From Halobacteriovorax marinus (GTDB lineage: Bacteria > Bdellovibrionota > Bacteriovoracia > Bacteriovoracales > Bacteriovoracaceae): a DNA stretch of 64,000 nt. Every line of letters starts with the position of its first letter. Within the stretch, counting starts at the first letter, position 1. The position numbers were made by a program, and so were the translations under genes. Shown in pieces: positions 17,910-23,361 of this stretch. The notes under the pieces are model-generated. The model was not told the DNA's origin. It did no database searches and saw only the letters and a list, made by a program, of their open reading frames with translations. Location of the stretch: assembly GCA_002163155.1 (NCBI GenBank), contig MAAO01000015.1:186001-250000 (forward strand). Reading direction: 5' to 3'.

Positions 17910-18263
17910 CCGAGATGGGAAAGGCTGTCGCCGGTGAAGTTTACTTCACGGGAGGAAAGTCCGGACTCCACATAGCGATGTAGCGGGTAACGCCCGTCCA
18001 CCGTGAGGTGAGGACAAGTGCAACAGAAAGGATGTACAGGGGTTTGAGAATGTAAGGGGTAGCTTTGGCCGACCTTGCTTCGAATCATTCATTTGATACC
18101 TGCTGTAGTGAAAACAGGTAAACTCTACGTGGTGCAAGTCTAAATAGGTCTGTGTTAAGGGTAGCTAGCTCGTGCAGACGGGTAAGACGCTCGAGCCATG
18201 GAGCAATCCATGGCCTAGACGAATGACAGTTCTCGACAAGATCCGGCTTAATTCCCATCTCGG
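17910..18263 (+). ncRNA. rnpB: RNase P RNA, bacterial class A
   Basis: About 354 nt. Conserved blocks are visible in the right order: GAGGAAAGTCCGGACTCC, GGGTAACGCCC, GTGCAACAGAAAG, GGTAAACTCTACG followed by GCAAGTCTAAATAGG, and near the 3' end GGCCTAGACGAATGAC and ATCCGGCTTA. The ends pair perfectly: CCGAGATGGGAA at 17910-17921 with TTCCCATCTCGG at 18252-18263 (helix P1). It is the catalytic RNA that removes tRNA 5' leaders. A run of T follows directly, and the convergent hydrolase gene ends against it. Confidence 0.97.
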
Positions 18264-18270
18264 TTTTTTT
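18252..18270 (+). terminator. rnpB terminator (P1 3' strand plus T tract)
   Basis: The 3' strand of helix P1 is followed immediately by seven T residues at 18264-18270, so P1 itself or the preceding structure serves as the terminator stem. The T run overlaps the stop codon of the convergent gene. Confidence 0.6.
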
Positions 18271-20445: not shown

Positions 20446-21210
20446 CTATTTGCAATATTTACTCACTGCGCCATCCATAAATTGCTGTAGATCTTTCATG
20501 GAATAGGCCCCAAAGTCGCCCCCATAGATTTGAGCTGAAATAGAAACAAGGAAATCTCGAAGTTCTATGGAATATTCATCGATATCTGTGATCAAATACA
20601 CGACTTTCGCATTGGAGTCTTTAATCCATTTAATCATTTTCTTTTGATTATTGAGTCCATAATTCTGACAAGAACCTGAAGCGACTCCAAGTTCCTTTTT
20701 CGCAGTATCAAAGATTTGAAAATTTATCTTTTCTCCGCAAGCATCTCTAACTTTTTTAACGATAGTTCTTCTTTCGCAAAACTGTGGATCCGAGTTGTAA
20801 TCAATATTTCTCATACTTGAGCTGGTATCAATCCAGACCTCAACTCCGGTTCTCCTAGATGGTCCACCGGTGGCCTTACCACAGAAAATATCGAAGTAAT
20901 TTCCTTTGTCACATTTAACAAGATCCACTTCGCTAGAGTTAATTGTCTTAAGTGGTTTTAAGATTTGATCTTTTTTTCCTGCGCCAGCATCACCTTCTAC
21001 AAAACCCAATTGAGGATGAAAACAGCCGTCTCCCATAGGGACACATTCAGTTTCATTAGCGGCAAGATAACTTCCACTTAAAATTGGGAAGAGATTAAAT
21101 CCTTCATAGAGAGAAGTTCTCTTTGGAGAAACAAAGAAGAAATGAACTTCATCCGGCACAGCAAGTGCTGAAACTGAAATTAGAAAATAGAGAAATAAAA
21201 TTTTTCTCAA
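20446..21210 (-). CDS. Secreted protein with a von Willebrand factor A-like domain
   Basis: 254 residues with a signal peptide (ILFLYFLISVSALA). After a Cys-containing N-terminal region, residues 124-132 read EVWIDTSSS: D128-x-S130-x-S132 is the MIDAS metal motif of vWA domains. VYLITDIDEYS fits a later MIDAS aspartate strand. The start is a TTG overlapping the regulator's TGA stop, so its translation is coupled to the XRE regulator. It presumably binds a protein or surface ligand in the periplasm or outside the cell. No family name can be given. Confidence 0.65.
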   Translation of the reverse strand: MRKILFLYFLISVSALAVPDEVHFFFVSPKRTSLYEGFNLFPILSGSYLAANETECVPMGDGCFHPQLGFVEGDAGAGKKDQILKPLKTINSSEVDLVKCDKGNYFDIFCGKATGGPSRRTGVEVWIDTSSSMRNIDYNSDPQFCERRTIVKKVRDACGEKINFQIFDTAKKELGVASGSCQNYGLNNQKKMIKWIKDSNAKVVYLITDIDEYSIELRDFLVSISAQIYGGDFGAYSMKDLQQFMDGAVSKYCK

Positions 21211-21866
21211 ACAATCATTCCCTTTTGGCGAAAGAATCTAAAGAGATCGTTACCTAAGTCCACAATCAAATCTTTTCCTTCCATATCCAAATTTAAAAAG
21301 TCACTCATATAGGCCCTTTGCCTCGGCGACAATTGTTCTAACTTTTCTTTGATAGTAAGCTCTTTCTTATTCCCTGCTTCAAAGGGAATTCTCTGAGTCT
21401 TTCCACCTACTTTTATTTTTGCTGTAACATTCTCTCTTGCTGTTCCACCACCTAGGGCATCAGCAAAATTGTCTTCAAAGCCTGTTCCACTTGGCGGCGT
21501 TGTAACTGGTCCAGCATTAGATGTTGCAGCAGCACTCTCTCCTGGTCCCCCGAGAGGGTCTTGTTCAATAGTGCTCTCACCTGCTTCTTCCTTATAAAAC
21601 TTAACTAGTCTTATAAAGTGGTCCGCATACTCCTCTTCGACAAAATCAATCATTTCATGAAGTGGGATATTGAGTTTAGCGGTTATTTTCGCTACCAACT
21701 GAGGGTTTATGTCTGTTGTCTTTTGGGCGAGGAATCTACTCATAGTAGAAACACCAATTCCTGTGACTACTGCAAGTTCCTTCTGTGACAGAGAGCCACG
21801 TACTTGCATGTACTTACGAACTACCCCAAGGTAATCTGCAATTTTGTCTTTGTTGAAACTGGCCAT
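21207..21866 (-). CDS. XRE/Cro-CI family transcriptional regulator
   Basis: 219 residues. An N-terminal helix-turn-helix (about residues 18-65: LSQKELAVVTGIGVSTMSRFL) is of the CI/XRE type; the middle is a Gly/Ala/Pro-rich linker (about 110-145), and the C-terminus ends with a short helical region (LSPRQRAYMSDFLNLD). I chose the ATG at 21866 because GGAGGG lies four bases upstream; a TTG four codons earlier overlaps that site. The divergent spacer is packed with TTGCAATT-like sites, suggesting autoregulation and control of the opposite gene. No LexA-like protease motif is seen. Confidence 0.82.
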   Translation of the reverse strand: MASFNKDKIADYLGVVRKYMQVRGSLSQKELAVVTGIGVSTMSRFLAQKTTDINPQLVAKITAKLNIPLHEMIDFVEEEYADHFIRLVKFYKEEAGESTIEQDPLGGPGESAAATSNAGPVTTPPSGTGFEDNFADALGGGTARENVTAKIKVGGKTQRIPFEAGNKKELTIKEKLEQLSPRQRAYMSDFLNLDMEGKDLIVDLGNDLFRFFRQKGMIV

Positions 21867-21897
21867 TACGCCCTCCAAGTTATTGATAATTCGTTAT

Positions 21898-22034
21898 TTG
21901 CAATTAATTTTGGACTTCTTTGTCCTTGTAATCATTATCGGAATTGCAAAAAAATTCCTTAATGCAATTTTAGCTCTTGACGCAATTGGTCAAGTAAGTT
22001 AAGATTTAATTGCGCAGCGCAATAACGTTGCAAC
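21898..22034. promoter_or_regulatory. Cluster of GCAATT/TTGCAA operator-like sites between divergent genes
   Basis: The intergenic region holds repeated versions of one motif in both orientations: TTGCAATT at 21898-21905, AATTGCAA at 21942-21949, ATGCAATT at 21962-21969, CGCAATTG inside the promoter spacer at 21981-21988, a 15-bp perfect palindrome ATTGCGC-A-GCGCAAT at 22009-22023, and GTTGCAAC at 22027-22034. The palindrome lies where transcription of the rightward gene should begin. Density and symmetry suggest operators for the adjacent XRE regulator (inference). Confidence 0.6.
21977..22005 (+). promoter_or_regulatory. Sigma-70-type promoter of the Cys/Asn-repeat protein gene
   Basis: TTGACG at 21977-21982 and TAAGAT at 22000-22005 with 17-bp spacing. 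Predicted start of transcription about 22012, inside the 15-bp palindrome, a classical position for repression. Confidence 0.65.
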
Positions 22035-22059
22035 CAACACAGACTCAGGGGTGACCGAC

Positions 22060-22587
22060 ATGAAAACTCTTACTCAATTCTTTAATCCTTTTTTGAATGA
22101 GTCCCAAGCAGATGCTCAGTACGAAGTTATTGAAAATATGACTTTAGATGCTAAGAATTTCAATGGGTTGAGTATTTCAGGTTCTCTCTTCTCTCTCACT
22201 ACCTTTAAGAATGTCACCTTTGAGTTCTGTGTTTTTTACGGGTCAAAAATGGAAAATTGCAAATTTGTGAATTGCAAGTTTAGCAATTGCGAATTTAAAT
22301 TTACAAGCATCTCACACTGCAATTTCACAGGGACAGAGTTTGAGAATTGCAATTGGGATTTTTCACCAATTAGAAAGTCAGAATTTAACTTCTCTCGCTT
22401 AGATGCAGTGACTATGCACTACGCCTCTAAAGAAGAGAATACCTTCAGCTCATGTATGAGCAATAACGATCTCACATGGGATCAGGCATTAGCGGCAGAG
22501 GAAGCCGAAGCTCAAGTAGTGAAGTTGCACACTGAAACGTTTACGGACCTTTTAGAGAACTTCTTATTTGGGAAACAAGCAGCTTAA
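22060..22587 (+). CDS. Pentapeptide-repeat-like protein
   Basis: 175 residues. The central part (about residues 30-110) is built of five-residue steps with repeated Asn-Cys and aromatic positions (ENCKFVNCKFSNCEFKF and similar), the pattern of right-handed quadrilateral beta helices of pentapeptide-repeat proteins. The C-terminus is helical and acidic (EEAEAQVVKL). I chose the ATG at 22060 (AGGGGTG upstream) over a GTG three codons earlier. It is divergent from the XRE regulator and probably under its control. Function unknown; known members inhibit gyrase or scaffold other proteins, but nothing here fixes a role. Confidence 0.7.
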   Translation: MKTLTQFFNPFLNESQADAQYEVIENMTLDAKNFNGLSISGSLFSLTTFKNVTFEFCVFYGSKMENCKFVNCKFSNCEFKFTSISHCNFTGTEFENCNWDFSPIRKSEFNFSRLDAVTMHYASKEENTFSSCMSNNDLTWDQALAAEEAEAQVVKLHTETFTDLLENFLFGKQAA

Positions 22588-22615
22588 TAAAAATTAGCGT
22601 GGAATATAGATCACT

Positions 22616-22752
22616 TTGCCTCAAGGATATATTCGCTTAAGACATATCTAACTTGATAGAGGCAACTTACCCTAATCTAGACAGGGCCTACGGATTGGCC
22701 CCCTAGACAACTCAAAATCCTACCTACTGATCTGGCACCTCCGGGTGCCAGA
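22616..22752 (+). ncRNA. Candidate structured RNA with three consecutive hairpins
   Basis: Three stems follow one another without coding potential. The first pairs TTGCCTC at 22616-22622 with GAGGCAA at 22659-22665 and is extended inside by AAG/CTT and GATAT/ATATC. The second pairs TCTAG + GGGCC with GGCCC + CTAGA at 22676-22707. The third is nine perfect base pairs closed by a TCCG tetraloop at 22731-22752. There is no T tract after the last stem, so it is not a plain terminator. It does not match tmRNA, SRP RNA, 6S or a riboswitch class I recognise. It lies between the repeat protein and a small gene; either a small RNA or a leader of the latter. Confidence 0.5.
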
Positions 22753-22789
22753 GCACATCTTCTAAAGGTTGGAATTATGGAGTCTTAGA

Positions 22790-22933
22790 ATGAAAGAACT
22801 AATAGCCTCACTTATACTCTCTTTTTTAATAGCCGATACTGCACAGGGAATTGTTCACCACTATAAGCACAATCTAGCACCGGAACTGATTCTTAATAAT
22901 CATCTCTCAACCTTAGAAAATGACTTGGAATAA
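22790..22933 (+). CDS. Small 47-residue protein with an N-terminal hydrophobic segment
   Basis: ATG preceded by GGAG (ATGGAG, eight bases upstream); 47 codons to TAA. Residues 5-15 (IASLILSFLIA) form a short membrane or export segment, and the rest is polar and His-rich (VHHYKH). The hydrophobic N-terminus and ribosome binding site support translation, but the gene is short and has no recognised family. It lies between two RNA-structure candidates. Confidence 0.4.
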   Translation: MKELIASLILSFLIADTAQGIVHHYKHNLAPELILNNHLSTLENDLE

Positions 22934-23006
22934 AGGCGTTCCCGTAGCTAAGTTACTGATAACTTGTGATATTTTTTAGTTACTGCTCTCGCAAAGGGGA
23001 TACCTT
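22933..23006 (+). other. Candidate RNA structure: long bulged hairpin
   Basis: AAGGCGTTCCC at 22933-22943 can pair with GGGGATACCTT at 22996-23006 (one C-A mismatch). Directly inside it GTAGCTAA at 22944-22951 pairs with TTAGTTAC at 22976-22983, leaving a 12-nt bulge on the 3' side and a small GTTA/TAAC stem in the loop. No T tract follows. It begins at the stop codon of the small gene and lies upstream of the 82-residue gene; function unknown. Confidence 0.35.
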
Positions 23007-23112: not shown

Positions 23113-23361
23113 TTGAGTAAGCAAGTTTTAGAAGATAGGATGTTTGACCGTTATAGAGACGAAGTCGAATTCACCTATTCAGAATGTATCCACACCGGAG
23201 AATTTTTTGCTGGAGAATTTAATAGTCATTTATTAGATATCTGGAAAGCAGCAAAGATTGATGGTTTAGCGGAGGAAGATTTTCAAGATATTGTGGAAGA
23301 GGTAGTCACTAAGTATGTTGACTTAATTTACTATCCTTTTTCAGTCGCCATAGCAGCGTAA
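23113..23361 (+). CDS. Small acidic protein, unknown function
   Basis: 82 residues, starting at a TTG that has GGAGG eight bases upstream; no upstream in-frame ATG exists. The sequence is acidic and helical (for example EEDFQDIVEEVVTKYVDL) with no signal peptide or metal motif. A nine-codon reading frame beginning ATG at 23087 ends in TGA overlapping the TTG start (TTGA), which could couple translation, but a TATACT box just upstream may start transcription inside it. A strong hairpin terminator follows. Confidence 0.6.
   Translation: MSKQVLEDRMFDRYRDEVEFTYSECIHTGEFFAGEFNSHLLDIWKAAKIDGLAEEDFQDIVEEVVTKYVDLIYYPFSVAIAA

Follow-up and report, generated by a model that had tools for sequence, protein, structure and literature searches.

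The DNA analyzed here (the window) is a 64,000-nucleotide stretch from Halobacteriovorax marinus. Within it, an RNA element of about 150 nt (22602 to 22752) lies immediately 3′ of a gene for a pentapeptide-repeat protein. A divergent HTH regulator gene stands on the other side of the protein gene, and a 47-aa open reading frame (ORF) follows the RNA. This arrangement agrees with the original prediction, in which the element was bracketed by a regulated repeat protein and a small gene. In relatives, the repeat-protein gene also comes with a conserved promoter-like element and leader and with a divergent HTH gene, and the pattern TTGAC[GA]C precedes it in 91 of 101 genes. The features of the locus are listed in Table 1.

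Table 1. Features of the RNA and of its parent locus, in window coordinates
Feature	Position	Strand	Sequence and remarks	Basis
HTH regulator gene, divergent	21207–21866	−	Conserved neighbor; probable regulator of the parent gene	
Promoter-like element of the putative parent transcript	21977–22005	+	TTGACG, 17 nt, TAAGAT; also precedes the gene in relatives	Pattern scan
Inverted repeat	21977–21993		TTGAC-N7-GTCAA; overlapped by the promoter-like element	
Pentapeptide-repeat protein gene	22060–22587	+	Constant neighbor of the RNA; probable parent mRNA	ORF, Pfam pentapeptide, alignment A12, synteny 35/35
Pseudoknot stem S1, 5′ strand	22602–22608	+	GAATATA; partner 22628–22634	Own-species partners score above other-genus partners
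Pseudoknot stem S2, 5′ strand	22616–22622	+	TTGCCTC	Covariation
CsrA-type motif 1	22622–22627	+	CAAGGA; its C sits in the invariant S2 C-G pair	CANGGA in 35/35
Pseudoknot stem S1, 3′ strand	22628–22634	+	TATATTC	Own versus other-genus partner scoring
Pseudoknot stem S2, 3′ strand	22659–22665	+	GAGGCAA	Covariation
Hairpin 2	22676–22707	+	TCTAG...CTAGA with inner GGGCC/GGCCC	Strong covariation
CsrA-type motif 2	22690–22694	+	ACGGA; apical loop of hairpin 2	
Linker	22708–22730	+	Single-stranded, pyrimidine/A-rich, contains CTACCT; conserved in part	
Hairpin 3	22731–22752	+	TCTGGCACC-TCCG-GGTGCCAGA; UNCG-type tetraloop, terminator position	No T tract here

The original prediction placed three consecutive stems in the 137-nt segment from 22616 to 22752, the last one capped by a UCCG tetraloop. 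Stems do lie there, and the tetraloop is present; the architecture is really that of a pseudoknot followed by one ordinary and one terminator-like hairpin, and it starts about 14 nt earlier. The claim that such a fold is rare in random sequence was borne out: the minimum free energy of the 137-nt segment is −45.2 kcal/mol, versus −28.9 ± 3.5 kcal/mol for 200 dinucleotide shuffles (z = −4.7), none of which was as low.

We model stems S1 and S2 as a covarying H-type pseudoknot, half of which had been taken for the first hairpin. In S1, the sequence right after the stop codon pairs with the strand that follows the first GGA, and it does so with different letters across relatives (CCTGAC/GTCAGG, CCGGC/GCCGG, and GATTAGC/GCTAATC). 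With S1 located by best complementarity, without an independent alignment, own partners score 14.1, versus 10.96 for partners drawn from other genera (sd, 0.56; best of 1,000 draws, 12.7). For the apical stem of hairpin 2, found in 34 of the 35 sequences, the corresponding scores are 11.3 and 4.9 (sd, 0.74). In the alignment of 35 sequences, standard pairs fill 92.4% of the pair cells, versus 63.2% after shuffling, double (compensatory) changes occur at 29 of 32 pairs, and the covariation score is 0.713, versus 0.201 for shuffled and at most 0.205 for slid versions, all these figures being favored by an alignment that had been fitted to the tested structure. Pairing is clearly conserved in relatives, the point on which the original prediction had staked itself. 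An inner stem of hairpin 1 seen in the window's genus (GATAT/ATATC), which is part of the models, is kept in only 77% of cells and was replaced by S1. A pairing between linker and GGA loops failed in other genera; one between the linker and the sequence ahead of the small ORF was judged by eye, within the window's genus.

Hairpin 3 occupies the position of a terminator. The lack of a terminator T tract noted originally holds for the window, where none follows the hairpin, so that in this genus it lacks one mark of an intrinsic terminator, and where a pattern scan gave no terminator-like site near the RNA. A U-rich tail does follow hairpin 3 in several relatives, however, which marks the site as a terminator position.

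A DNA search found the region in all five genomes of the genus, that of the window included, and outside it returned nothing better than chance-level matches. A covariance model built from these five sequences (R1) and run on the 125 family genomes gave strong matches (E = 6e-14 to 8e-4) in 12 that belong to other genera. A second model (R2, 17 sequences) yielded 35 of 129 genomes at E ≤ 1e-4, with a single match per genome; the 129 genomes are an identical set for family, order, and class. The R2 matches in all 35 genomes sit just 3′ of the pentapeptide-repeat gene, weak ones away from it in G115 and G031 being excluded from the 35. A third model (R3, 35 sequences) was run unfiltered on 20 further loci, in which the gene was present and R2 negative or the gene was cut, and recovered 10 of them (E ≤ 1.4e-6), each with the RNA 3′ of that gene. 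The covariance search among relatives that had been proposed for this RNA was thus productive. In a named collection, the RNA occurs in 31 of 40 loci, including those of Bacteriovorax sp. BSW11_IV, DB6_IX, and MedPE-SWde. Across the phylum (368 genomes), strong matches are confined to the window's own family. R3 values in six genomes outside the family range from 5.5e-5 to 0.0084; the matches in G204, G223, and G294 have no pentapeptide-type neighbor by a simple motif scan, and all six may be chance matches. The one in G204 (locus L144; E = 5.5e-5) may be chance or a distant relative.

Comparison with Rfam, also proposed originally, found no family that fits: positions 22560 to 22960 are empty at E ≤ 5, and at that threshold the window has no match to the CsrB, CsrC, RsmY, or RsmZ family. 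No tRNA or tmRNA was detected. The view that the RNA belongs to no known class stands in this sense, but it overlooked CsrA/RsmA motifs in two of the loops. The sole gathering-level Rfam match in the window, far from the RNA, is a bacterial class A RNase P RNA (17911 to 18266, plus strand; 212.6 bits). A permissive scan of five relatives gave two sub-threshold matches, one to RsmY and one, considered fortuitous, to a microRNA family.

The position of the RNA relative to its neighbors is constant on one side. The RNA model begins 3 to 30 nt behind the stop codon of the pentapeptide-repeat gene, on the same strand, in all 35 genomes, directly after a coding gene as in 3′UTR-derived sRNAs; the coding sequence may nevertheless hold a promoter for the RNA. 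The downstream gene differs between genera (small ORFs, convergent genes, and others), and for this reason we assign the RNA to the upstream gene, with which it would be cotranscribed.

Two loops of the RNA carry CsrA-type motifs. CANGGA stands in the loop behind S2 in all 35 sequences (N = A in 26, T in 7, G in 1, and C in 1), the search pattern having required the C and the GGA and allowed A or C between them; the C takes part in an S2 pair that is C-G throughout (35 of 35). The loop of hairpin 2 contains ANGGA in 33 of 35 sequences, 31 of them from hairpin finding that was blind to the motif and two (G048 and G052) by inspection. Hairpin 2 lacks ANGGA in G119 and G047, which counts against the titration of CsrA proposed below. 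The distance between the motifs is 67 nt in the window and, in most other sequences, 61 to 79 nt. Motif 2 is exposed in an apical loop, and motif 1 lies in a pseudoknot loop, not in a simple hexaloop. The RNA thus has the ANGGA core of CsrA/RsmA-binding RNAs. CANGGA and ANGGA match the CsrA/RsmE consensuses given in the accessible text of PMC6692469, namely, (A/U)CANGGANG(U/A), RUACARGGAUGU in E. coli, and mAwGGAs in C. jejuni, and this agreement supports CsrA binding. The many GGA motifs of a CsrB/CsrC/RsmY/RsmZ-type sponge are found in G057 only; the window RNA has two.

The motif is also enriched behind the gene at loci that are not in the R2 set. Of 125 genomes, 102 have a match to the pentapeptide protein, and the 3′ side was taken for 101 genes (G065, a weak match, was left out), 100 of which have sequence; G082 has none downstream, and 65 of the 66 genes outside the R2 set were accordingly counted. 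These counts keep weak protein matches, which may be other pentapeptide proteins, and loci L085 and L093 contain runs of N. In the first 200 nt, the 35 R2 genes have 48 CANGGA, versus 9.3 (sd, 3.0) after shuffling, with at least one in every case. The 65 other genes, 10 of which carry the R3 fold, have 56, versus 14.1 ± 3.7 after shuffling, spread over 40 genes; among them, CA precedes NGGA 56 times, versus 30 for the next-best letter pair (N = A in 27, T in 14, C in 9, and G in 6). CANGGA occurs within 100 nt past the stop codon in 30 of 39 genera, which are related and not fully independent; the minus strand has it in 1 of 39, and the same strand at 300 to 400 nt in 8 of 39. Among the long reading frames of the window (open frames, uncurated), 3 of 47 have it within 100 nt. 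Textbook C(ANGGAN)G hairpins follow the gene in G055, G022, G074, and G030, all outside the R2 set. CANGGA is found after the gene in 4 of 18 members of the g36 lineage and 0 of 5 of g43, which counts against titration.

The motif is expanded in G057, in which five tandem 32-nt CAAGGATG units (unit, CAAGGATGAAGAAAATTGAGCAGGAAGCTCAC) come right after the orthologous gene (L149, 1760 to 1922) and are followed by an R3 match; 440 nt there hold 9 CANGGA and 17 GGA. Judged by its repeats, this is a CsrB-like array that falls outside the known Csr RNA families (against RsmY, E = 0.5 and 18.3 bits, where gathering is 57).

The proposed protein partner is present as well. The genome of the window encodes one CsrA, at position 35115 of contig C5, similar to solved CsrA and RsmE proteins, with FliW directly behind csrA; the ORF ahead of csrA appears to encode a flagellar-type, FlgL-like protein. 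CsrA was found in 116 of 125 family genomes, and because it is nearly universal, a test of its co-occurrence with the RNA is powerless. Among the 35 genomes with the RNA, CsrA was not found in G076 (listed as 100% complete) or G054, and a contig-end fragment was found in G127, which counts against titration.

Read together from sequence, these features make it probable that the RNA is a CsrA-binding 3′UTR RNA. It would form the untranslated 3′ tail of the mRNA for the pentapeptide protein, or be released from that mRNA as an sRNA, and would offer CsrA two predicted sites, the CANGGA in the pseudoknot loop beside the invariant C-G pair and the ANGGA at the tip of hairpin 2. By binding CsrA, it would withdraw the protein from other mRNAs, and expression of the locus would then relieve CsrA-controlled genes; flagellar genes are plausible targets because csrA adjoins fliW. 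We put the probability of titration in trans at roughly 60%. It is favored because of the G057 array and because no ANGGA is common to the start of the parent gene. The small number of sites (two in most species, versus many in CsrB) and their distance of 67 nt are points against it.

The main rival, to which we give a clearly smaller share of belief, is that CsrA binds the 3′UTR and acts in cis, governing how stable the pentapeptide mRNA is and how it is processed or terminated. The invariable association with a single gene and the presence of just two sites in most species speak for this, whereas the array expansion in G057 suits titration better. Of the parent-gene leaders, 12 of 32 contain ANGGA and 6 contain CANGGA (3 of 35 leaders were not located by pattern); with no ANGGA common to the leaders, ordinary CsrA repression at the parent start codon is not indicated, and effects at the 3′ end remain compatible. 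It is improbable that the RNA is a 3′UTR-derived base-pairing sRNA with the unpaired linker (CCUACCU or CACAUCU) as its seed and the GGA loops serving another purpose. The linker is pyrimidine-rich and partly conserved, and the 3′ hairpin is terminator-like, yet the linker is less conserved than both GGA motifs and varies between genera. Still less probable is a riboswitch or another ligand-binding aptamer at the transcript end, as the H-type pseudoknot with its invariant loop might suggest: outside the helices, the invariant part is essentially CANGGA and ANGGA, no downstream gene is constant enough to be its target, and Rfam gives no match. We consider it slightly less credible again that the RNA is only an elaborate terminator or mRNA-stabilizing structure; the terminal GC-rich hairpin and the U-rich tails of some genera would fit, but the invariant CANGGA and its enrichment outside the R2 set would be left unexplained, and the window's genus has no T tract. 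A leader RNA acting as a cis-regulator of the 47-aa ORF, which in the window's genus is conserved and has a plausible Shine-Dalgarno sequence, is largely refuted by synteny, the downstream gene being different or convergent across genera and the upstream gene constant in 35 of 35.

CsrB/CsrC and RsmX/Y/Z are sRNAs that act as CsrA sponges, RsmY being RF00195. The RNA described here resembles them in its ANGGA motifs in loops and, in G057, in its multicopy array; unlike them, it lies on the 3′ end of a protein gene, mostly has two sites, one of which is in a pseudoknot, and has no Rfam match. CsrA-antagonist RNAs and dual-function mRNAs are already known as kinds. According to the accessible text of PMC4894983, the flaA mRNA of C. 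jejuni, a bacterium that also has FliW, bears a pair of GGA sites and titrates CsrA; its sites belong to the 5′ leader, where neighboring hexaloops present them 21 nt apart, and the optimal spacing is given as about 18 nt, whereas here they lie in a 3′UTR, 67 nt apart, with one in a pseudoknot. SroC and other 3′UTR-derived sRNAs, as presented in the available part of PMC9438474, likewise are regulatory RNAs at an mRNA 3′ end with a terminator-like end, but SroC sponges an sRNA through base pairing, whereas the partner proposed here is the protein CsrA. From a predatory relative, Bdellovibrio bacteriovorus, the accessible text of PMC3627812 describes the noncoding merRNA, also a suggested sponge; it carries a c-di-GMP riboswitch, to which the RNA here has no match. 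The same text reports a sharp switch in Bdellovibrio between a fast-swimming attack phase and a nonmotile growth phase, and a conserved RNA built to bind CsrA, if confirmed, would offer a testable handle on the attack/growth switch.

No CsrA-antagonist RNA of predatory Bdellovibrionota is described in the literature searched: titles and abstract openings yielded nothing that joins Bacteriovorax with CsrA or Halobacteriovorax with a small RNA, and, by title, none of the papers on Bdellovibrio and CsrA concerns a CsrA-binding RNA. Nor did that literature, which covers few subscription journals, show a location behind a pentapeptide gene, presentation of a site in a pseudoknot, spread across the class, or expansion into an array. 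The combination of a constant protein gene, a pseudoknot-presented site, and an array in one lineage suggests a path from an mRNA tail to a stand-alone sponge RNA. We propose, tentatively and with rather less confidence than titration itself, that one pentapeptide-repeat mRNA bears in its 3′UTR a CsrA sponge that stays attached to its gene and serves as the CsrA antagonist RNA throughout this class of predatory bacteria. It would present one site in an H-type pseudoknot and would have grown into a CsrB-like array in one lineage or more, which would show how Csr sRNAs with genes of their own can originate in the tail of an mRNA.

The surroundings of the RNA hold further conserved features. The intergenic region at 21894 to 22059 is very conserved, with a TTGACGCAA-N-GTCAA palindrome over the −35 element and ATGCAATTTT blocks, and is likely an operator of the divergent HTH gene; the 5′ leader in it is apparently hairpin-capable, and a CACAGG-CTCGGGGG-type stretch stands ahead of the start codon. 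Behind the RNA, the 47-aa ORF (22790 to 22933, plus strand; MKELIAS..., with a hydrophobic N terminus) is found in all five genomes of the genus, and short hydrophobic ORFs that look unrelated take its place at loci L037, L060, L039, L040, and L066 of other genera. Farther on, an 82-aa protein without a Pfam match (23113 to 23361, plus strand) is conserved in the genus and carries AGEF and YPF motifs.
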